Origin: a virus | Length of the DNA stretch: 39,138 nt | Strand: one strand, 5' to 3' | IMG/VR virus record: IMGVR_UViG_3300043468_000854 | Location: 1-39,138 of that record | Shown here: positions 23,049 to 39,138 of the stretch, piece by piece | Numbering within the stretch: the stretch's first letter is position 1 | How the letters are laid out: each line of letters starts with the position of its first letter | Made by a program: the position numbers and the translations under genes | Notes under the pieces: generated by a model | Databases searched by the model: none | Told to the model about the DNA's origin: nothing | Seen by the model: the letters and a program-made list of their open reading frames with translations, nothing else

Positions 23049-23084
23049 GTTTCCAAAAATCTTTCGAGATTCTGCTGAAGACCG

Positions 23085-23112
23085 TTGACACGTTGCGCCG
23101 ATAGTGTATTCT
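23085..23112 (+). promoter_or_regulatory. Strong sigma70-type promoter P1
   Basis: TTGACA at 23085-23090, 16-base spacer ending CGATAGTG, TATTCT at 23107-23112. Shares spacer end, -10 context and downstream leader with the promoter at 27563, so the two modules are copies. Drives the small genes that open the early region. Confidence 0.8.
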
Positions 23113-23119
23113 ACACCCA

Positions 23120-23137
23120 TCGCGGTAAGGGCCGCGA
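23120..23137 (+). promoter_or_regulatory. 5' leader hairpin with TAAGGG loop (P1)
   Basis: TCGCGG (23120-23125) pairs with CCGCGA (23132-23137) and displays the hexaloop TAAGGG. It starts at or near the predicted transcript 5' end. The counterpart at 27603-27618 has a different stem sequence but the same loop. Confidence 0.7.
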
Positions 23138-23164
23138 GACGAAACACTAACCGGGAGAACAGTG

Positions 23165-23341
23165 ATGACAAAGCAGCAAGTCGAATCAATGGTGTGCACG
23201 ATCCTTTCAAACGAACCACACGGTTCAGACCTGTCTGCACTGACTGATTTCCAGATTGGTTTCTATCTGGAAGGCAGCAACTACGAAGCATCAGCAGCAA
23301 ACATTCGCAAGATGCGAAAAGCAATGGGCAACTGGGGCTGA
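23165..23341 (+). CDS. 58-residue early protein, unknown
   Basis: ATG 23165 with GGGAG 8 bases upstream. Sequence MTKQQVESMVCTILSNEPHG, then ALTDFQIGFYLEG and NIRKMRKAMGNWG at the end: likely a small helical protein without membrane segment. First gene after promoter P1 and its hairpin leader, and followed directly by a terminator, so it is a strongly expressed single-gene unit. Small early proteins often bind host targets; no function can be assigned. Confidence 0.7.
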   Translation: MTKQQVESMVCTILSNEPHGSDLSALTDFQIGFYLEGSNYEASAANIRKMRKAMGNWG

Positions 23342-23357
23342 CACACCCACCCCAAAC

Positions 23358-23396
23358 ACCCGGCGGACTGTCTGCCGGGTTTCCGAGCGGTTTTTT
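23358..23396 (+). terminator. Intrinsic terminator
   Basis: ACCCGGC (23358-23364) pairs with GCCGGGT (23374-23380) around a 9-base loop, followed by TTTCC and, after GAGCGG, a run of six T (23391-23396). Confidence 0.65.
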
Positions 23397-23410
23397 GAGG
23401 GATCAGAATC

Positions 23411-23533
23411 ATGCAGTGGGCAGTCTGGATTAGGCTAAGCGACGGCAGCGGGTACCGGTTTGGGGTGTACGACAGCCGCGAGGAGGCAAACGCGATTGCG
23501 GCGTTGGTGGGCGGGGTGGTGGAGTTGGTGTGA
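23411..23533 (+). CDS. 40-residue small protein, unknown
   Basis: ATG 23411, GAGG(G) ribosome site at 23397-23401, stop 23531-23533. MQWAVWIRLSDGSGYRFGVYDSREEANAIAALVGG followed by a short hydrophobic end: a compact beta-alpha-like pattern without known family. Lies between two terminators, so it forms its own transcription slot within the early region. Confidence 0.6.
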   Translation: MQWAVWIRLSDGSGYRFGVYDSREEANAIAALVGGVVELV

Positions 23534-23538
23534 CATCA

Positions 23539-23563
23539 GCCCGCCAACCGGCGGGCGTTTTTT
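23539..23563 (+). terminator. Strong intrinsic terminator
   Basis: GCCCGCC (23539-23545), loop AACC, GGCGGGC (23550-23556), then G and six T. Perfect 7-bp G+C stem. Confidence 0.85.
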
Positions 23564-23575
23564 CGGAGGGGCACA

Positions 23576-24070
23576 ATGGGGCATTTGATAACAACAGCCG
23601 AGCAACTGGCAGAGGCAATCGTCACGGACCCGGAGCGGGTGGCGGCGTGCTTGGGCCGGATCAACCGATTTGGAGGACAGGTGCCACACTGCACTGTGCT
23701 GCGGCACAGTCTGGAGGTGTACTACAGGATTGACGCTGACCCGGATTCATCGGACGCGGCGCGGCTGTGGGCACTTTTGCACGACTGCCACGAGATACTG
23801 ACCGGGGACGTGGTGCGCCCCTACGTCACTGCACGTCTGCGGATGGATCAGCAGGCGATTGATGACGCAATTGTGCGGCGGTTGCCGTTGCTGTTGCCAC
23901 AGCCCGAGAGCATGGACTGGGAGTCTGTATCCGCAGCCGATCGGGCGGTAGGTGAATGGGAGATGCTGGAAATCGGGCAGGGACGGGTGCCCTATTACCT
24001 TTGCGGCTACGCGGAGGATTCGTGGGCAAGTCTGGTGTGTGAACTGATTACGATCGGGGGTGCGGCGTGA
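23576..24070 (+). CDS. HD-domain phosphohydrolase, YfbR-like
   Basis: 164 residues. The metal-binding set is in order: VPHCTVLRHSLEV with His38 and His44, LLHDCHEILTGD with His69-Asp70, His72-Glu73 and Asp78, and ADRAVGEWEM with Asp122, the distal Asp of the family. YfbR-type enzymes are 5'-deoxynucleotidases, and phage versions are common, usually thought to balance nucleotide pools. Preceded by a terminator and a good ribosome site (GGAGGGG). The next gene overlaps as GTGA. Confidence 0.82.
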   Translation: MGHLITTAEQLAEAIVTDPERVAACLGRINRFGGQVPHCTVLRHSLEVYYRIDADPDSSDAARLWALLHDCHEILTGDVVRPYVTARLRMDQQAIDDAIVRRLPLLLPQPESMDWESVSAADRAVGEWEMLEIGQGRVPYYLCGYAEDSWASLVCELITIGGAA

Positions 24071-24504
24071 GTGATTCACAACTGAAGTCTCTGAAGGCAT
24101 TTGCCGAGCGTGAGCGTGGCCACCTTCTGGAGCACTGTCCGCCAATCCCGGTGGTATCAGATTGGTTTCTGGAGGTCGATCGCGATGGCCGACTTACAGG
24201 CCAGGTGATCAGCGGAGCCTGCACCAGTCACGTGCAGTACGATCCGAGGTTCCGCGCCGTGTTCCGCCATGACTGCACATTCTACAGCTCGGGGCTGGGC
24301 GAGTGGCTGCATGTGGTCGAGACATTCTGGCGGCAGACTCTGAGGCAGTGGCAATCTTACAGGCGACTCGGCGAGGTGCTTCAGGCTGCTGAAGACTGCA
24401 CGCCGGAGACGCATGAGGAACGCTGGCGGGCGGTCTATGAATGTCTCGGGTGGAATCCTGACACAGCACGAGAGCAGTATTTGGAGCGGAGGGCTGCACA
24501 ATGA
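24067..24504 (+). CDS. Conserved-type phage protein, unknown
   Basis: 145 residues from GTG 24067 (GTGA overlap). Helical ends (LKSLKAFAERERGHLLEHCPP; YRRLGEVLQAAEDCTPETHEERWRAVYECLG) around a beta middle that mentions no motif. Co-translated with the HD hydrolase and the next gene, so a role in nucleotide or DNA metabolism is conceivable but unproven. Confidence 0.6.
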   Translation: MSDSQLKSLKAFAERERGHLLEHCPPIPVVSDWFLEVDRDGRLTGQVISGACTSHVQYDPRFRAVFRHDCTFYSSGLGEWLHVVETFWRQTLRQWQSYRRLGEVLQAAEDCTPETHEERWRAVYECLGWNPDTAREQYLERRAAQ

Positions 24505-25088
24505 TCCCATTGGCAATCCGACGTCACAGCCTGCAGGATCTGACGCTGGGGCAGTCCACACTTCTGACAGTCCCGTCCTGCGAGGAACGCCAGATCCGGC
24601 GAGCGGTTGGCGTGTTGAACGCAGGACGCAGCGACGGGCTGCGGCTGAAGACCCTGCGGACTCCTGACGGCCTGCGGGTGTGGCTGGTCGAGTCCGTGGA
24701 GGTTGCCGACTGTCCGGAGTGGAAGACGGGCAAGTCCCGGAGGTTTCCGGGGCGTGATCCGGTGGCCGTGCAGAAGTCCGTGGTCAAACTCAATGAATGG
24801 GCGAGGGTGCTGCGAAGGCCGTACAGGTTTCGCGTGGTTGTTCGTGGCGGTGTGCCGATCGTTTTGAAGCTGCCGAAAAACAAGACGATACGCATCCGAC
24901 GTGAGGCGGAATTGTCACGAGTGATGCGGGCCGTTGAGCGTCTGCGAGCGGGTCAGGGTACAGTCGTGCGGGGCGTCGAAAGGTGCGATATCGTCCGGGC
25001 AAAATGGCGGATGAAAAAACGCGGCATTCGGTTCATTGTGCGGTGTATCGGGGAGTCAGTTTGGAATGTGGAGATGGTGAGCGAATGA
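24501..25088 (+). CDS. Basic protein of unknown function
   Basis: 195 residues, strongly basic (many Arg/Lys such as KRPYR- and RRSRRFPG-like runs), with a C-terminal helix rich in Arg. The pattern LPKNKTIRIRREAELSRVMRAVERLRAGQG suggests nucleic-acid contact. No recognised domain. ATGA overlaps link it to both neighbours in the early cluster. Confidence 0.58.
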   Translation: MIPLAIRRHSLQDLTLGQSTLLTVPSCEERQIRRAVGVLNAGRSDGLRLKTLRTPDGLRVWLVESVEVADCPEWKTGKSRRFPGRDPVAVQKSVVKLNEWARVLRRPYRFRVVVRGGVPIVLKLPKNKTIRIRREAELSRVMRAVERLRAGQGTVVRGVERCDIVRAKWRMKKRGIRFIVRCIGESVWNVEMVSE

Positions 25089-25312
25089 GTGACCCAACAC
25101 AGCGGGCGTTAAGCGAGGCATCATCCATGATCGGCAGGCGTGAGGACCGCATTCAGCGGGCACTGAAGGTGCTGCAGAAGGCGCAGCGGTATGATCTGCA
25201 GTCGCTTGGCGATTATCAGGGCGAGGGCATGGTCCACAGCGATAGCGGTGACTATGTTGACGCAGACGACGTAGACCGAGCAATCCAGATTCTACAGGAG
25301 GGGCAAACATGA
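25085..25312 (+). CDS. Small acidic protein, possibly related to its neighbour
   Basis: 75 residues. A first helix (IQRALKVLQKAQRYDL) and a C-terminal VDADDVDRAIQILQEG. The latter resembles SQDVDGAIETLLRG in the gene at 25309, so the two may be diverged tandem paralogues. Function unknown. Translated by ATGA coupling. Confidence 0.58.
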   Translation: MSDPTQRALSEASSMIGRREDRIQRALKVLQKAQRYDLQSLGDYQGEGMVHSDSGDYVDADDVDRAIQILQEGQT

Positions 25313-25566
25313 GTGAGCTGGCAAAAACAATTGAACGTCTGGAGCTGTGGGCGGAGTATTGGACGCCGCACCAGCCTCCCGAATTCATCGCCGATTTGAA
25401 TGCGCTGATCGGCACGGCAAAGGCGGCGATGCGAGTGGCTGCGACGCTGGAAAACGCAGAGCGGATTATGCTGATGCACGAGGACGATGAAGTGGAATCA
25501 TACGCAGTACCATCGCAGGACGTGGACGGTGCGATTGAGACACTGTTGAGAGGGGACGTGCTATGA
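25309..25566 (+). CDS. Small protein, possible paralogue of the upstream gene
   Basis: 85 residues. N-terminal amphipathic helices (LAKTIERLELWAEYWTPHQ), Asp/Glu-rich middle, and the ending QDVDGAIETLLRG that parallels 25085-25312. No family recognised. ATGA overlaps at both ends tie it into one operon with the glycosyltransferase-methyltransferase gene. Confidence 0.58.
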   Translation: MSELAKTIERLELWAEYWTPHQPPEFIADLNALIGTAKAAMRVAATLENAERIMLMHEDDEVESYAVPSQDVDGAIETLLRGDVL

Positions 25567-26771
25567 CCAGTCCCCACATTCTCTGCATCATGTCCCATTA
25601 CACGGACCCCGTGTTGTCTTTGAGGCGTCTTGAGATCAGCCGGGCGACACTGCTGCCGTCATTGGCAGCACAGACGCGAAAGCCCACGCTGCACATCGTG
25701 GTGAGCCAGCATGATCCGTACTTGCGGCAGCGATTGATTGAATACGACGCGACAGGCTGCGAGTGCTTTTTTCTGTATCGGGACACGTGGAAGCTGTACG
25801 GCGAGAACTGGCAGATCCCGCAGACACACTGCATCGTCGGGCGTGTTGACGATGATGACGTTCTGCGGGCTGACTTCTGCGCGGTCGTTCATCACTGCGG
25901 AATGGTGCACCGTGAGCGGGCAATCATCTGGCCGCTTGGCCTGGTGTATTGGCGGGGGCAGATGTTCAGGCTGGAACACAACGGCAACCAGTACCTAACG
26001 CTGAGCACGTCTCGGGGAATTGATCCGCACCACAAGGCCCATGCCGTGATTCAGCGGGAATGGCGGAGCGTGCGAGCATCGTTCAAGCCGGGATGGATCT
26101 GGGTGAGACACGGGGATTCGGAGACATCGACACTGCCGAAGTATCGGGCGACACCTGCGGGCAATTGGCAGTCAGGCAAGTGGCCAGTGGATCTGCAGGC
26201 CGTCGATGCAGCGATTGCACCCAGCGGGCAGGCGTCTGCAGACTATCGCGAGCACGGGAAACGGGCGCGAGGAATGCGCGTCAGTCAGTGGCTGAGCGTG
26301 TACGGTTCGGACAAAGTCTCCGTGCACAACTACGGGTCATTCTACGACGATCTGTTTCAGCGGCTGAGACCGCAGGCACTGCTGGAGATTGGGGTATATC
26401 GCGGGGCCAGTTTGAGGGCGTGGCAGGCTGCTGGTGTGCCGAAGGCGATCGGGGTAGATAACGATCCGGCAACGGCATCACTCGACCGGCACGTGCTGCT
26501 GGCAGATATGCCGCGGCAGGCGTATGCTGTGGCGGAGCAGGTGGGATTGCTCGATGTCATCATTGACGATGGCAGCCACCTGTATTACGACTACACGGCG
26601 ACTGCTGACGTGCTCCTGCAGCGACTGAGACTCGGTGGAGTGTACGTGATCGAGGATATCCAGACGCAAGACAGTGTCGATGCACTGAGGGCTGCAGGAT
26701 GGCAGATTGAGGACTGGCGCGAATCAACGGGTAGGTACGATGATGTTATTGCGTGGAAAGAAAGGGTTTGA
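25563..26771 (+). CDS. Glycosyltransferase-like and SAM methyltransferase fusion
   Basis: 402 residues in two domains. Residues 1-215 look like a GT-A-type sugar transferase of the putative rhamnosyltransferase kind: HILCIMSHYTD, then LPSLAAQTRKPTLHIVVSQ, a DxD-like RVDDDD at 94-99, and KPGWIWVRHGDS. Residues 240-402 are a class I methyltransferase similar to sugar O-methyltransferases (macrocin type): YGSDKVSVHNYGSFYDDL, LLEIGVYRGASL (273-284), DVIIDDGSH (331-339) and GGVYVIEDI. One protein could add a sugar and methylate it. Phage substrate unknown. Ends in GRYDDVIAW, which recurs as a remnant at 27063. Confidence 0.75.
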   Translation: MTSPHILCIMSHYTDPVLSLRRLEISRATLLPSLAAQTRKPTLHIVVSQHDPYLRQRLIEYDATGCECFFLYRDTWKLYGENWQIPQTHCIVGRVDDDDVLRADFCAVVHHCGMVHRERAIIWPLGLVYWRGQMFRLEHNGNQYLTLSTSRGIDPHHKAHAVIQREWRSVRASFKPGWIWVRHGDSETSTLPKYRATPAGNWQSGKWPVDLQAVDAAIAPSGQASADYREHGKRARGMRVSQWLSVYGSDKVSVHNYGSFYDDLFQRLRPQALLEIGVYRGASLRAWQAAGVPKAIGVDNDPATASLDRHVLLADMPRQAYAVAEQVGLLDVIIDDGSHLYYDYTATADVLLQRLRLGGVYVIEDIQTQDSVDALRAAGWQIEDWRESTGRYDDVIAWKERV

Positions 26772-26773
26772 AA

Positions 26774-27073
26774 ATGAAGATCGGAAAATCAGACGTTCCA
26801 TATCGGTGTTTTGCTCGTACAATTATGCGGTGGGACAGCATTCAGAAAAAGCTGCGAGTGTTGCGAATTTGTTGGGCGAAACACGGAGGTCCGGTGGTGA
26901 ATGTTTCGCACGACGCGCCCCCATCTCCCAAGGGATACACAGCAGCACTGAGCGTTGCGTTGACCGCGCGGATGCGGCTGGTATCGTTTCATCGCGAGTG
27001 CTCTGGGTGGTGGCTGACAGTCGGCTCGGTACAAATACATTATGAGCGAAGCTACGGTGGCTGGCAGGTATGA
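26774..27073 (+). CDS. Inserted small gene, unknown
   Basis: 99 residues from ATG 26774 (two bases after the upstream stop; longer in-frame starts overlap that gene). Basic and aromatic sequence with no family (MKIGKSDVPYRCFARTIMRW, later RMRLVSFHRECSGWWLTVGS). The gene separates the fusion gene from a duplicated 3' end of that gene, so it probably arrived as an insertion. Its codon use is somewhat more A+T-rich near the 5' end. Function cannot be inferred. Confidence 0.58.
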   Translation: MKIGKSDVPYRCFARTIMRWDSIQKKLRVLRICWAKHGGPVVNVSHDAPPSPKGYTAALSVALTARMRLVSFHRECSGWWLTVGSVQIHYERSYGGWQV

Positions 27074-27104
27074 TGACGTGATTGCTTGGAGGGTGAAGGA
27101 ATGA
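27063..27104 (+). pseudogene. Duplicated 3' remnant of the methyltransferase-fusion gene
   Basis: Reading GGC AGG TAT GAT GAC and on, this stretch encodes GRYDDVIAWRVKE and a stop. The first nine residues equal the end of the gene at 25563 (26730-26756, GRYDDVIAW), with five synonymous differences in 27 bases. Its TGA overlaps the ATG at 27101 as ATGA. It marks where the ancestral fusion gene ended before 26774-27073 was inserted. Confidence 0.75.
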
Positions 27105-27307
27105 AAACGAGTGACCTGAGCAAAGGCGAACAGCGAATGCTGCAGATGATTGCAGGGGCGATGCAGCAGAGTACACCAGAGGAGCACGACGCTGAATTCG
27201 GTGAGGGTGGGCTGGAGGCGTTTTTGCGCGGCATCCTGATGCGGATTCAGAATGCACGCAACTCGGCACGGATGACGTTGCGGGATCTGGAGGGGCCACC
27301 AAGATGA
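27101..27307 (+). CDS. Small helical protein, unknown
   Basis: 68 residues, Met/Gln/Glu-rich helices (LSKGEQRMLQMIAGAMQQ; LEAFLRGILMRIQNARNSARMTLRDL). No membrane segment, no family. The start ATG lies in the ATGA junction left from the ancestral arrangement with the methyltransferase-fusion gene. ATGA overlap with the next gene. Confidence 0.6.
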   Translation: MKTSDLSKGEQRMLQMIAGAMQQSTPEEHDAEFGEGGLEAFLRGILMRIQNARNSARMTLRDLEGPPR

Positions 27308-27543
27308 GTGAGCAATTTTGGCTGTTTGCCGGTTGGCATCAGCGAGCAATGGGCGGCATTTACGATCTGATGGCACGGTATCAGACGCGCGACGCGGCAC
27401 TGGCTGCAGCCGAGGACGCGGCGACGCGGCTGCGCGTCAAATGGTGGCAGGTGGTCGATGCAGCATCCGCTACCATTGTTGCTCGATCCGACTGTCTGCC
27501 ATACGGTGGACAGCGGATTTGCCCGCCACCAGAAAAAAAATAA
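27304..27543 (+). CDS. Small protein, unknown
   Basis: 79 residues with Trp-rich start (SEQFWLFAGWHQRAM), a helix (RDAALAAAEDAATRLRVKWWQVVDA) and a Pro/Lys end. No recognised domain. Last gene before promoter P2. Confidence 0.58.
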   Translation: MSEQFWLFAGWHQRAMGGIYDLMARYQTRDAALAAAEDAATRLRVKWWQVVDAASATIVARSDCLPYGGQRICPPPEKK

Positions 27544-27562
27544 AAAAACAGACTGAATGGGA

Positions 27563-27590
27563 TTGACACCCCGTGTCGATAGTGTATACT
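27563..27590 (+). promoter_or_regulatory. Strong sigma70-type promoter P2
   Basis: TTGACA at 27563-27568, 16-base spacer ending CGATAGTG, TATACT at 27585-27590. It shares with P1 the TTGACAC start, the CGATAGTGTAT motif, and the leader below. Preceded by an A-rich stretch (27534-27550, 15 of 17 bases A) that may help as an UP element. Confidence 0.85.
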
Positions 27591-27602
27591 GTACCCATGC
27601 GA

Positions 27603-27618
27603 GCAACTAAGGGGTTGC
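27603..27618 (+). promoter_or_regulatory. 5' leader hairpin with TAAGGG loop (P2)
   Basis: GCAAC (27603-27607) pairs with GTTGC (27614-27618) around TAAGGG. All stem bases differ from the P1 hairpin but are again complementary and the loop is identical, so structure and loop are conserved. Confidence 0.72.
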
Positions 27619-27647
27619 GAGCGACACAAAAAACTGGGAGAACGACG

Positions 27648-27845
27648 ATGACTGGCAAGCTTGTAACTGTGACCTGCAAGGCGTTCGGTGGACGAATCGG
27701 CACACACACCTGCAGCGTTGACGCTGATGGCACTGTGCGAGTGTGGGACAGTGTGGCACAGTACTACACCACCTGCCACAGCCTGAGCGACCGCACGATG
27801 AAGCGACTTCGCAAACTGGCTGCAAAGTCTGGCATTGACGGCTGA
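27648..27845 (+). CDS. 65-residue early protein, unknown
   Basis: ATG 27648 with GGGAG as the ribosome site; the leader end GGGAGAACGACG resembles GGGAGAACAGTG before 23165. MTGKLVTVTCKAFGGRIGTHTCSVDADGTVRVWDSVAQYYTTCHSLS shows a beta-sandwich style with three cysteines, then a Lys/Arg helix (DRTMKRLRKLAAKSG). First gene behind P2 and followed by a terminator: a highly expressed early unit. Function unknown. Confidence 0.68.
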   Translation: MTGKLVTVTCKAFGGRIGTHTCSVDADGTVRVWDSVAQYYTTCHSLSDRTMKRLRKLAAKSGIDG

Positions 27846-27863
27846 GCGGCACAACAAACACAC

Positions 27864-27888
27864 ACCCGCTGCACAGTGCGGCGGGTTT
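27864..27888 (+). terminator. Intrinsic terminator
   Basis: ACCCGCTGCA (27864-27873) pairs with TGCGGCGGGT (27877-27886) with one T-G wobble around CAG, then TTTCT. Preceded by ACAACAAACACA, as in the terminator at 28204. Confidence 0.75.
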
Positions 27889-30723: not shown

Positions 30724-31138
30724 GCGACGATGGAGCGTATTTGTGCCCATCACGCCAGTGGCACAGCCACGGCAGCGGATATCGACAATCGGCGGACGGG
30801 CAAGATCCTACCTGCCGAAGAAACACCCGGTGCACGGGTACAAGCTGGCACTGCAGCACGCAGTGCGTGAGGCAGGTATCAAGGTTGGCGACGGTCCGCT
30901 GGCGTTCGGGCTGGTGTTTTATTTGCCGATGCCTGCCAGCTGGAGCAAGAAAAAACGCGCAGCACTGCTGCACAGTCCGCACTGTCAAAAACCGGATCTG
31001 GACAATCTGGCGAAGGCGGTGTTGGACGGGCTGCTGCCGGTGATTGGTGACGATAGCAGGGTGTGGCAGTTCGACGTCCTGCGGAAACTGTGGGCTGAGC
31101 ACGGTGGAGTTGGAATCACAATCGAGGAGCTAACATGA
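30713..31138 (+). CDS. rusA: RusA-like Holliday junction resolvase
   Basis: 141 residues. The family motif KPDLDNLAKAVLDGL is at 93-107, with the catalytic-type Asp95 and Asp97 and a later Asp113/Asp114 (VIGDDSRV), matching the Asp70, Asp72 and Asp91 pattern of E. coli RusA. The upstream part PVAQPRQRISTIGG shows the typical basic RusA start. It cuts four-way junctions before packaging. The ATGA overlap binds it to the CsrA-like gene. Confidence 0.88.
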   Translation: MSFERRWSVFVPITPVAQPRQRISTIGGRARSYLPKKHPVHGYKLALQHAVREAGIKVGDGPLAFGLVFYLPMPASWSKKKRAALLHSPHCQKPDLDNLAKAVLDGLLPVIGDDSRVWQFDVLRKLWAEHGGVGITIEELT

Positions 31139-31410
31139 AACGCAAAGTAGCAGCAGTGGCAGCGGTCCCGCATGATGCACCGAAGCCCGTCAAGCAGGTC
31201 AAGAAGTTCCGCACAAACGTGGACGGCAACGGCGGCTTAACGCTGGGGCGGAGGGCACAGGAGTCCGTGATCATCCGCTGTGGTGACGTAACAATTGAAG
31301 TGGTCATGGTCGAGATTCGGGGCGACAAAGCGCGTCTGTATTTCAGTGCACCGCGACACGTCGAGATCGTCAGAGCGGAGCTGGAGGGGAGGCCGAGTCA
31401 TGATGATTGA
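31135..31410 (+). CDS. csrA: CsrA-like RNA-binding protein with basic N-terminal extension
   Basis: 91 residues. Residues 35-82 align to CsrA without gaps at the key parts: GLTLGRRAQESVIIRCGDVTIEVVMVEIRG versus the family [26 protein letters not shown], and LYFSAPRHVEIVRAEL versus GVNAPKEVSVHREEI. The RNA-contact residues correspond to Leu37, Arg39 and Arg80 (CsrA Leu4, Arg6, Arg44) and are kept. The first 30 residues are a basic extension (MKRKVAAVAAVPHDAP..KQVKKF). CsrA dimers bind GGA in mRNA leaders and change translation or stability. Confidence 0.82.
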   Translation: MKRKVAAVAAVPHDAPKPVKQVKKFRTNVDGNGGLTLGRRAQESVIIRCGDVTIEVVMVEIRGDKARLYFSAPRHVEIVRAELEGRPSHDD

Positions 31411-38159: not shown

Positions 38160-38982
38160 TGCAGAGCGTGAGGCGGTCGGGCGTCTTGTGGACATCGTTC
38201 CGAGGGCCGGGGATTTCCCTGGCTATCTGGACGTGCTTCGAGATCCCGCAAACAGCCCACTAACGCGGATGCAGGTGGAGCGACAACAGCGCAACGACTG
38301 CCAGGGGAACGCAACCGCAAACGGGGAAGAGGTCCGGTCGTGGTATTGCAGCGGTCGGCAGCGCATGCCGGTGCTGTCTGAGATGTACGCCTACAATGCG
38401 AGCGAATACGTGATGCAGCCGAGCAACGTGGGCGGCGACCGTGGCACGTCGATACACTCGGGCGTGCGGGTGCTGTGCGAGGGAATTCCCGGTCTGCAGG
38501 TCGATCCGGGATTGCCCACTGAGTCTGTCTGGCCTTACGCGCAGTATTGCCGGAGGGCGTCCGAGTTTGTGCGGTGTTGTCAGGGCCTGCAGGTTGAGGC
38601 ACCACACGTCACCGAGGTCAAAGACCTGCCAGAGTGGGACGATATGCTGGCCGCACTCGCGGCAGGCAGCACAGGGCACATTGGCACATTCTGGGGCGTA
38701 AGCTGGCGGACGGTACCCGGTGCACCGAAGCGAGTCATGGACAGCGCACCGAGGTCTGGCGGCGGACATGCCACAGAGATCATATGGGCCGTGGAAGTCG
38801 GTGCGGATTGGTATTTGGCGGTGTGGAATTCCCACGGGGATGGTTACTATCTGATGAGTCGGCGATGTTACGAACAACTGTGCACGAATAGCTGGGAGCC
38901 GTTTGGCGGGTTCCTGCTGACGCCGGATCGGATGGTTGAGCGATACGACAGAATCACGCAGGGTGGAGGGTATTTCGCATGA
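38125..38982 (+). CDS. Papain-like (C1A-type) cysteine peptidase, complete allele
   Basis: 285 residues. Catalytic pattern in order: RNDCQGNATANGEE with Cys59, GLPTESVWPYAQYC (equivalent to the family G-x-x-x-E-x-x-YPY), SGGGHATEI with His215, and WNSHGDGYYL with Asn235. The N-terminal 50 residues may be a propeptide-like or attachment arm; no signal peptide is seen. Phage papain-like peptidases are rare. Candidate functions are cell-wall cross-link cleavage at lysis, or processing of a virion or host protein. Several extra cysteines (76, 118, 142, 151, 152) may need a reduced environment. The next gene starts within its stop codon. Confidence 0.78.
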   Translation: MVSVANLPRPSDAEREAVGRLVDIVPRAGDFPGYLDVLRDPANSPLTRMQVERQQRNDCQGNATANGEEVRSWYCSGRQRMPVLSEMYAYNASEYVMQPSNVGGDRGTSIHSGVRVLCEGIPGLQVDPGLPTESVWPYAQYCRRASEFVRCCQGLQVEAPHVTEVKDLPEWDDMLAALAAGSTGHIGTFWGVSWRTVPGAPKRVMDSAPRSGGGHATEIIWAVEVGADWYLAVWNSHGDGYYLMSRRCYEQLCTNSWEPFGGFLLTPDRMVERYDRITQGGGYFA

Positions 38983-39138
38983 ACAGGACATGGTCAGTGC
39001 TTGCGGTGGCAGGGCTCTTTGCAGTGGTATCTGCGGTGCCACTGGCGGCAATGATGCACGGCGACGAACCGCCCGCTTCCGTCAACGACATACTGCAGAA
39101 AATTTGCGCACGACTGGACGCGATTGAAAAACGACTCG
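38268..39138. repeat. 3' copy of imperfect terminal redundancy
   Basis: Homologous to 1-871 with constant offset 38267; the last 127 bases (39012-39138) equal 745-871 exactly. See the 5' copy for the mismatch pattern. Removing either copy gives a 38,267-base unit. Confidence 0.9.
38979..39138 (+). CDS. Thioredoxin-fold protein lacking cysteines, 3'-truncated copy
   Basis: Start of the gene found complete at 712-1182; the first 53 residues are present before the window ends. It differs at residue 2 (Asn for Ile) and at residue 10 (Val for Ala) from the other copy. Same GGAGGGTATTTCGC ribosome-site leader and ATGA junction with the peptidase. Represents the same gene seen from the other end of the circular map. 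Confidence 0.8.
   Translation, partial: MNRTWSVLAVAGLFAVVSAVPLAAMMHGDEPPASVNDILQKICARLDAIEKRL

Follow-up and report, generated by a model that had tools for sequence, protein, structure and literature searches.

Cis-acting hairpins in mRNA leaders are a known kind of element. The 5′ stem-loop of ompA is an example of one that stabilizes its transcript, and the boxB hairpins of phage lambda have a conserved loop on a freer stem. In the repression of E. coli glgC, a CsrA dimer places one half on a hairpin loop and the other on the Shine-Dalgarno sequence, and CsrA stabilizes flhDC mRNA at sites near its 5′ end (PMC7652899). In Csr/Rsm complexes the protein backbone reads the bases of the A(N)GGAX motif, which are described as irreplaceable (PMC4005645); similarly, an A and a GGA were present in every ligand selected by SELEX with Campylobacter CsrA (PMC6692469). 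A csrA gene is present in 30 of 2,517 phage genomes (PMC7366521) and in phage JC1 (PMC9144972), with no known phage targets in either source. What is unusual about the phage leaders described here is their use, since one standard leader serves exchangeable accessory genes.

The window analysed here is a single virus record, IMGVR_UViG_3300043468_000854 (39,138 bases), from a tailed phage that encodes terminase, portal, capsid and tail proteins, a DnaB-type helicase and RusA. It contains two promoter-leader modules on the plus strand (23085-23167 and 27563-27650), each with a promoter, a hairpin at the predicted 5′ end of the transcript, an A/C-rich linker, a Shine-Dalgarno sequence, a small gene and a terminator, in that order. 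Promoter 1 (23085-23112), read from the sequence and recovered by pattern scan and in relatives, has TTGACA (23085-23090) and the -10 box TATTCT (23107-23112) on either side of a 16-nt spacer, N8-CGATAGTG. Promoter 2 (27563-27590), from sequence and pattern scan, has TTGACA (27563-27568) and TATACT (27585-27590) around a spacer of the same length, N8 and the same 3′ end. Hairpin 1 (23120-23137; folding and covariation) is formed by TCGCGG (23120-23125), the loop TAAGGG (23126-23131) and CCGCGA (23132-23137), and is followed by an unpaired A/C-rich linker with the Shine-Dalgarno sequence GGGAG (23138-23157, GGGAG at 23153-23157). Hairpin 2 (27598-27623) is formed by GCAAC (27603-27607), the loop TAAGGG (27608-27613) and GTTGC (27614-27618), and extends below a symmetric GA/GA internal loop by three more pairs, UGC (27598-27600) with GCG (27621-27623); its A/C-rich linker and GGGAG lie at 27624-27640 (GGGAG at 27636-27640). 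In both leaders, GGGAGAAC precedes the ATG (23165 and 27648) of a cargo gene on the plus strand, encoding 58 aa (23165-23341) and 65 aa (27648-27845), respectively, neither of a known family. Each gene is followed by a terminator-like hairpin read from the sequence: CCCGGCGGACTGTCTGCCGGG-TTTCC (23359-23383, plus strand), which is at the same position in relatives, and CCCGCTGCACAGTGCGGCGGG-TTT (27865-27888, plus strand). Both are missing from the list produced by a consensus terminator scan. A first-pass annotation had described twin modules with TTGACA, a 16-nt spacer with a common end and a shared leader end before the ATG, as well as an identical TAAGGG loop on differing, compensating stems (TCGCGG/CCGCGA and GCAAC/GTTGC), and direct reading confirms both descriptions.

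The pattern TTGACA-N14-20-TATNNT has two sites in the window, both of them in the modules, against 0.06 expected, and none of 100 shuffles had two. Bare TAAGGG occurs in the window at chance frequency (5 seen, 5.25 expected); the notable feature is TAAGGG in a hairpin behind this promoter pattern, not TAAGGG alone. RNA folding adds a U-G pair that closes the loop, and RNAfold places the GA/GA internal loop between two stem parts both in hairpin 2 and in some relatives. Upstream of promoter 1 is an AT-rich inverted repeat, AATCT-TTCG-AGATT (23058-23071; read from the sequence), and a near-identical one occupies the same slot upstream of the equivalents of promoter 1 in relatives. The distance from such repeats (AATTC-TTCC-GAATT in another slot) to the -35 boxes downstream of them is approximately 15-30 bp, and they may possibly be UP-elements or operators.

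Two paralogous copies in one genome are too few to establish covariation, and relatives were therefore required. A search with the 65-aa product of cargo gene 2 gave three contigs, L174, L175 (100%) and L176 (91%), the last with the leader hairpin TCGCAC-TGAGGG-GTGCGA, and the neighbouring methyltransferase, used as another query, led to L295, L297, and L299, each of which has two or three modules. The remaining modules were found with the pattern TTGAC-N10-GATAGTGTA-N8-38-TRAGGG, the promoter part of which is retained among relatives. There are approximately 30 further copies in 18 related viral contigs, and approximately 32 modules in 19 contigs with the window, the whole set comprising 25 distinct 28-nt hairpins and one variant. 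Long genomes carry two or three modules each, ahead of differing small genes. The slots are in two regions, with one or two units after the tail genes and one after the methyltransferase gene; the flanks upstream of the modules are similar by slot, while the cargo genes vary.

Comparative analysis of the 25 distinct hairpins (alignment A2), for which stem pairing was not used to select sequences, showed that all six pairs have changed on both sides, with 58 double-change cells and 94.7% of cells occupied by standard pairs. The covariation score was 0.991, compared to 0.284 (sd 0.040) for shuffled alignments, none of 500 of which reached it, and to at most 0.233 for slid partners. RNAalifold returned the same stem together with the U-G closing pair. 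For instance, a stepwise path can be followed at one pair of one genomic slot, which is G-C in most contigs, G-U in L307, and A-U in L311. The leader thus contains a conserved structured RNA element, with compensatory changes in a common stem. The covariation originally claimed for the two window copies does not stand on those copies, and it is the relatives that supply it, at all six pairs; the idea survived the search for additional instances that could have refuted it.

The loop of the covariation set is constant as U(A/G)AGGG among relatives, with A/G variation at the second position only, and the tally over 27 leaders is UGAGGG in 22, UAAGGG in four and CAAGGG in one. Since the loop was part of the search patterns, its conservation was re-tested with a promoter-only search of the tail-protein relatives and longer genomes, allowing up to two mismatches per half. 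This gave 25 true modules, 24 of which have a TRAGGG hairpin; the other matches lie within coding sequence and have no leader. The single exception, in L342, is GUC-GA-GGC(AAGGG)GCC-GA-GAC, which has an unrelated stem and the same RAGGG core, and it precedes an orthologue of an L297 gene whose own hairpin is TCGCGG(TGAGGG)CCGCGA. Additionally, among hairpins with a six-base loop and five or more pairs in 0.49 Mb of loci, most of them retrieved with the tail protein (three also came from motif searches), TGAGGG was the most frequent loop, at 14 distinct sites, the next loop having five.

The hairpin begins approximately 5-9 nt behind the -10 box, at the predicted start of the transcript, and is followed by an unstructured linker that is 80-100% A+C. 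The Shine-Dalgarno sequence is GGGAG in 26 of 27 leaders and GAAGGA in one, and the loop ends approximately 27-38 nt before the start codon. A GC-rich hairpin with a T-rich tail follows most cargo genes, sometimes directly before the next module. In G000-G003, hardly any sigma-70-like promoter followed by a Shine-Dalgarno sequence lies outside the modules; one further match, in G001, has no hairpin. Two other structural readings were tried and rejected: a loop-linker pseudoknot, which is possible in only five of the 27 leaders, and an intrinsic terminator or attenuator, as in all 27 the hairpin is followed by A/C-rich sequence and no T run.

With E below 0.05 as the limit, a covariance model of the hairpin recovered all 11 modules of G000-G003, gave no other match in these genomes, and gave none in 536 kb of unrelated viral contigs. 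Hairpin 2 matched at E 0.009 and hairpin 1 at E 3e-4, this window copy being among the 25 sequences used to build the model. No Rfam family reached its gathering score in the window, and elsewhere permissive filters gave only chance-level matches (E 0.7-0.8). In a broad scan of viral contigs with the promoter plus TAAGGG, matches outside the group had no comparable stem-loop leader and are therefore considered background; a scan with GATAGTGTAT...TAAGGG saw the full leader in this phage group only. The pattern TTGAC-N10-GATAGTGTA-N8-38-TRAGGG gave 13 scattered matches in 84,980 bacterial and archaeal genomes, with no host or prophage found; L323 and L326, which passed the stem check in the cellular-genome scan, have stems of 3-4 pairs and no leader downstream. 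Isolated-phage relatives, sought through terminase and capsid, share only 22-38% protein identity, from which a host is not inferable. The literature searched on phage leaders, RNA motifs and UAAGGG or UGAGGG contained no earlier description. In the more distant relatives G026 and L349, promoters at similar locations carry a CGGCA-N3-TGCCG palindrome within the spacer, and their leaders lack the hairpin; therefore, the element appears to be confined to one phage group in the sequences seen. A second leader type, (GAC)GCAGTGGTGA..., is present behind other promoters of the hairpin-bearing phages (L302, L308, and L299, downstream of cargo genes) and at G026:22054, G026:19931, and L349:14466; two of three G026/L349 promoters have the GCAGTGGTGA... 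leader.

Approximately 20 small proteins, unrelated to one another, make up the cargo, and a given protein can recur behind different stems or in another slot. For instance, the MSSKMTEVEF protein is encoded in the second unit of L302 and the first unit of L307, and the IETK.AQAEVEGYLVRRR protein is in both L305 and L319. Cargo gene 1 of the window has no relative among viral contigs. One cargo protein has an LPD29 domain (E 1e-17) and is in the same slot behind unrelated stems at L297:4201-4770, L305:4571-5140, and L342:5890-6213; the other cargo proteins have no Pfam family above cut-off. LPD29 takes its name from the polyvalent proteins that phages and conjugative elements encode (PMC5512222). 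As in phage morons, the units have their own promoter and terminator, lie between conserved phage genes and carry cargo that varies in close relatives, but here one promoter-leader with a structured RNA is common to all units of a phage, a feature that does not belong to how a moron is defined. Given the covarying stem, the fixed loop and the genes swapped between phages, the leader is a cis-acting RNA element that belongs to moron-like cassettes. At approximately 11491-11600 of L313, a degenerate promoterless leader (CGACTGCTGAGGGCATTCGCAGC...CCGGGAGA) links two cargo genes, a layout suggestive of fused cassettes.

Overall, we consider it somewhat better than an even bet that this is a cis-acting leader of accessory cassettes whose loop is bound by a protein, most likely the phage CsrA. 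A host-type sigma-70 promoter would start the transcript, and its first ~20 nt would fold into the U(A/G)AGGG hairpin, followed by the unstructured A/C-rich linker, the GGGAG Shine-Dalgarno sequence, one small gene and usually a terminator. A protein would read the loop, with its RAGGG core, on a stem whose sequence can vary, and would thereby set the translation or stability of all such mRNAs jointly, whatever gene follows. Because the same promoter and a hairpin with fixed loop and covarying stem stand ahead of many different small genes, the arrangement suggests one regulator for all cassettes, possibly the phage's own CsrA-type protein. Binding of the leader by a protein is likely; CsrA is the first candidate, tentatively, with a chance of about one in three. 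The identity of the binder, the direction of its effect and the link between CsrA and the leaders are what we infer here, and a CsrA dimer might be expected to hold the 5′ hairpin with one half and the GGA within the Shine-Dalgarno sequence with the other, as on E. coli glgC.

The window encodes a CsrA-family protein of 91 aa with an N-terminal extension (31135-31410, plus strand), a candidate trans-acting factor that matches Pfam PF02599 (E 5e-12; 45.9 bits, cut-off 27) and CsrA chains of the PDB (E 6e-5); a tblastn search of INPHARED gave no match. Every hairpin-bearing contig above 20 kb encodes CsrA, as do some shorter ones, the contigs without it being fragments below 20 kb. Counting against CsrA as the binder, relatives with no detected hairpin also encode it (G020, G021, G023, G024, G026, and G028). 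Alignment with further phage CsrA proteins and an E. coli CsrA sequence shows three invariant residues: a Leu and an Arg in the first strand, and another Arg close to where the fold ends. The hairpin phages' CsrA proteins differ in a common N-terminal extension of approximately 30 residues, MKRKxxAVAAVPxxAPxPxxxxKKFRxNxDGNG, which three hairpin-less relatives lack in their CsrA. The CsrA-family proteins of these phages (31135-31410; loci L376-L391) are highly divergent between relatives, and G026 matches at two separate places.

In comparison to CsrA/RsmA leaders such as that of glgC, the phage leaders share a 6-nt purine-rich hairpin loop upstream of a GGA-containing Shine-Dalgarno sequence, with dual-site spacing; similarly, the sites on flhDC are at the mRNA 5′ end (PMC7652899). 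As expected of a CsrA target, a GGA overlaps the Shine-Dalgarno sequence downstream of the hairpin, and a CsrA-family protein is available in the phage. The loop is URAGGG, in contrast to ANGGAN, and the leader is a repeated phage cassette ahead of unrelated genes, with CsrA a putative ligand. None of the 27 leaders has in its loop the A(N)GGA required of CsrA/RsmA targets (PMC4005645, PMC6692469). As the canonical motif is read by the protein backbone, canonical CsrA is not expected to bind a loop without GGA, and CsrA is thus a candidate and not a result. An alternative binder could be a conserved basic protein of 195 aa (24501-25088), which has no Pfam or PHROGs family and, among the compared genomes, is encoded in hairpin-bearing phages only. 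Its predicted structure, an uncertain model with repeated helix plus beta-hairpin units, reached at best pLDDT 86 and pTM 0.55, the five models disagreeing (60-86), and no confident fold was found in the PDB (best E 0.0045, TM 0.22).

If the hairpin were purely stabilizing, then it would block a pyrophosphohydrolase and a 5′-end-dependent RNase and give long-lived small mRNAs, and its loop would not be read. Its closeness to the expected start, only a few bases away, its stems, which are stable whatever their sequence, and the unstructured linker agree with this. Stem-loops of the ompA type likewise have a stem at or near the mRNA 5′ end. However, the loop is strictly conserved here, invariant except for A/G, while the stem varies freely, and stability alone needs no fixed loop; we therefore regard pure stabilization as unlikely. 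It is less probable again, and distinctly so, that the hairpin acts on RNA polymerase as an antitermination or anti-pausing element. Lambda nut boxB and HK022 put are also small hairpins near phage promoters (for put, PMC9378689), and a conserved loop on a variable stem, just behind the promoter and in several copies per genome, is what such an element would look like. A nut or put site consists, however, of boxA with boxB, or of two consecutive hairpins, before an operon in which terminators are crossed, whereas here a single hairpin lies at the transcript 5′ end, the A/C-rich linker has no boxA-like sequence, and most units, being a single gene followed by a terminator, offer little for read-through.

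The first-pass annotation had likened UAAGG to the start of a Shine-Dalgarno sequence, and the loop could then be a landing or standby site for the 30S subunit via the 3′ end of 16S rRNA. URAGGG could pair with 3′-AUUCCU-5′ using wobbles, but the last loop base is always G, never A, where a true Shine-Dalgarno sequence (GGAG) has A, so pairing with 16S rRNA is probably not what is optimized; moreover, the leaders already have a normal Shine-Dalgarno sequence, nearly always GGGAG, downstream. The likeness is thus disfavoured, and a standby site is improbable, marginally more so than antitermination. An element acting as DNA, either a repressor operator at +1 or a single-strand recombination hairpin for cassette exchange, would fit the position at the promoter start and the movement of cargo genes between slots, but operators conserve their half-sites and not their centre, the reverse of what is seen, and the orientation behind the promoter is always the same, which makes such an element very improbable. 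Finally, a chance likeness of two unrelated leaders might have been entertained for the two copies within the window, but approximately 30 further copies with covariation refute it and leave it a negligible probability.

The cis-acting leader bound by a protein may be part of something more specific, a dedicated post-transcriptional switch in which a diverged CsrA with an N-terminal extension and RAGGG specificity co-regulates exchangeable small host-directed or counter-defence genes through the one standard leader; this is possible, though on balance doubtful. A co-occurring, repeated and covarying leader would provide a phage CsrA with a candidate regulon that can be tested, and would also test whether CsrA specificity can depart from GGA. 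The leader flags fast-exchanging small phage genes by sequence alone and, as it marks such genes, offers a handle for accessory or counter-defence genes in uncultured phages.

The ends of the record (1-871 and 38268-39138) form a direct repeat of approximately 873 bp, in which two versions of one gene encode roughly 240-285 aa. Its identity is only 90%, and it is therefore not an exact terminal redundancy; either the gene has two copies that have diverged or the assembly mixes strains.
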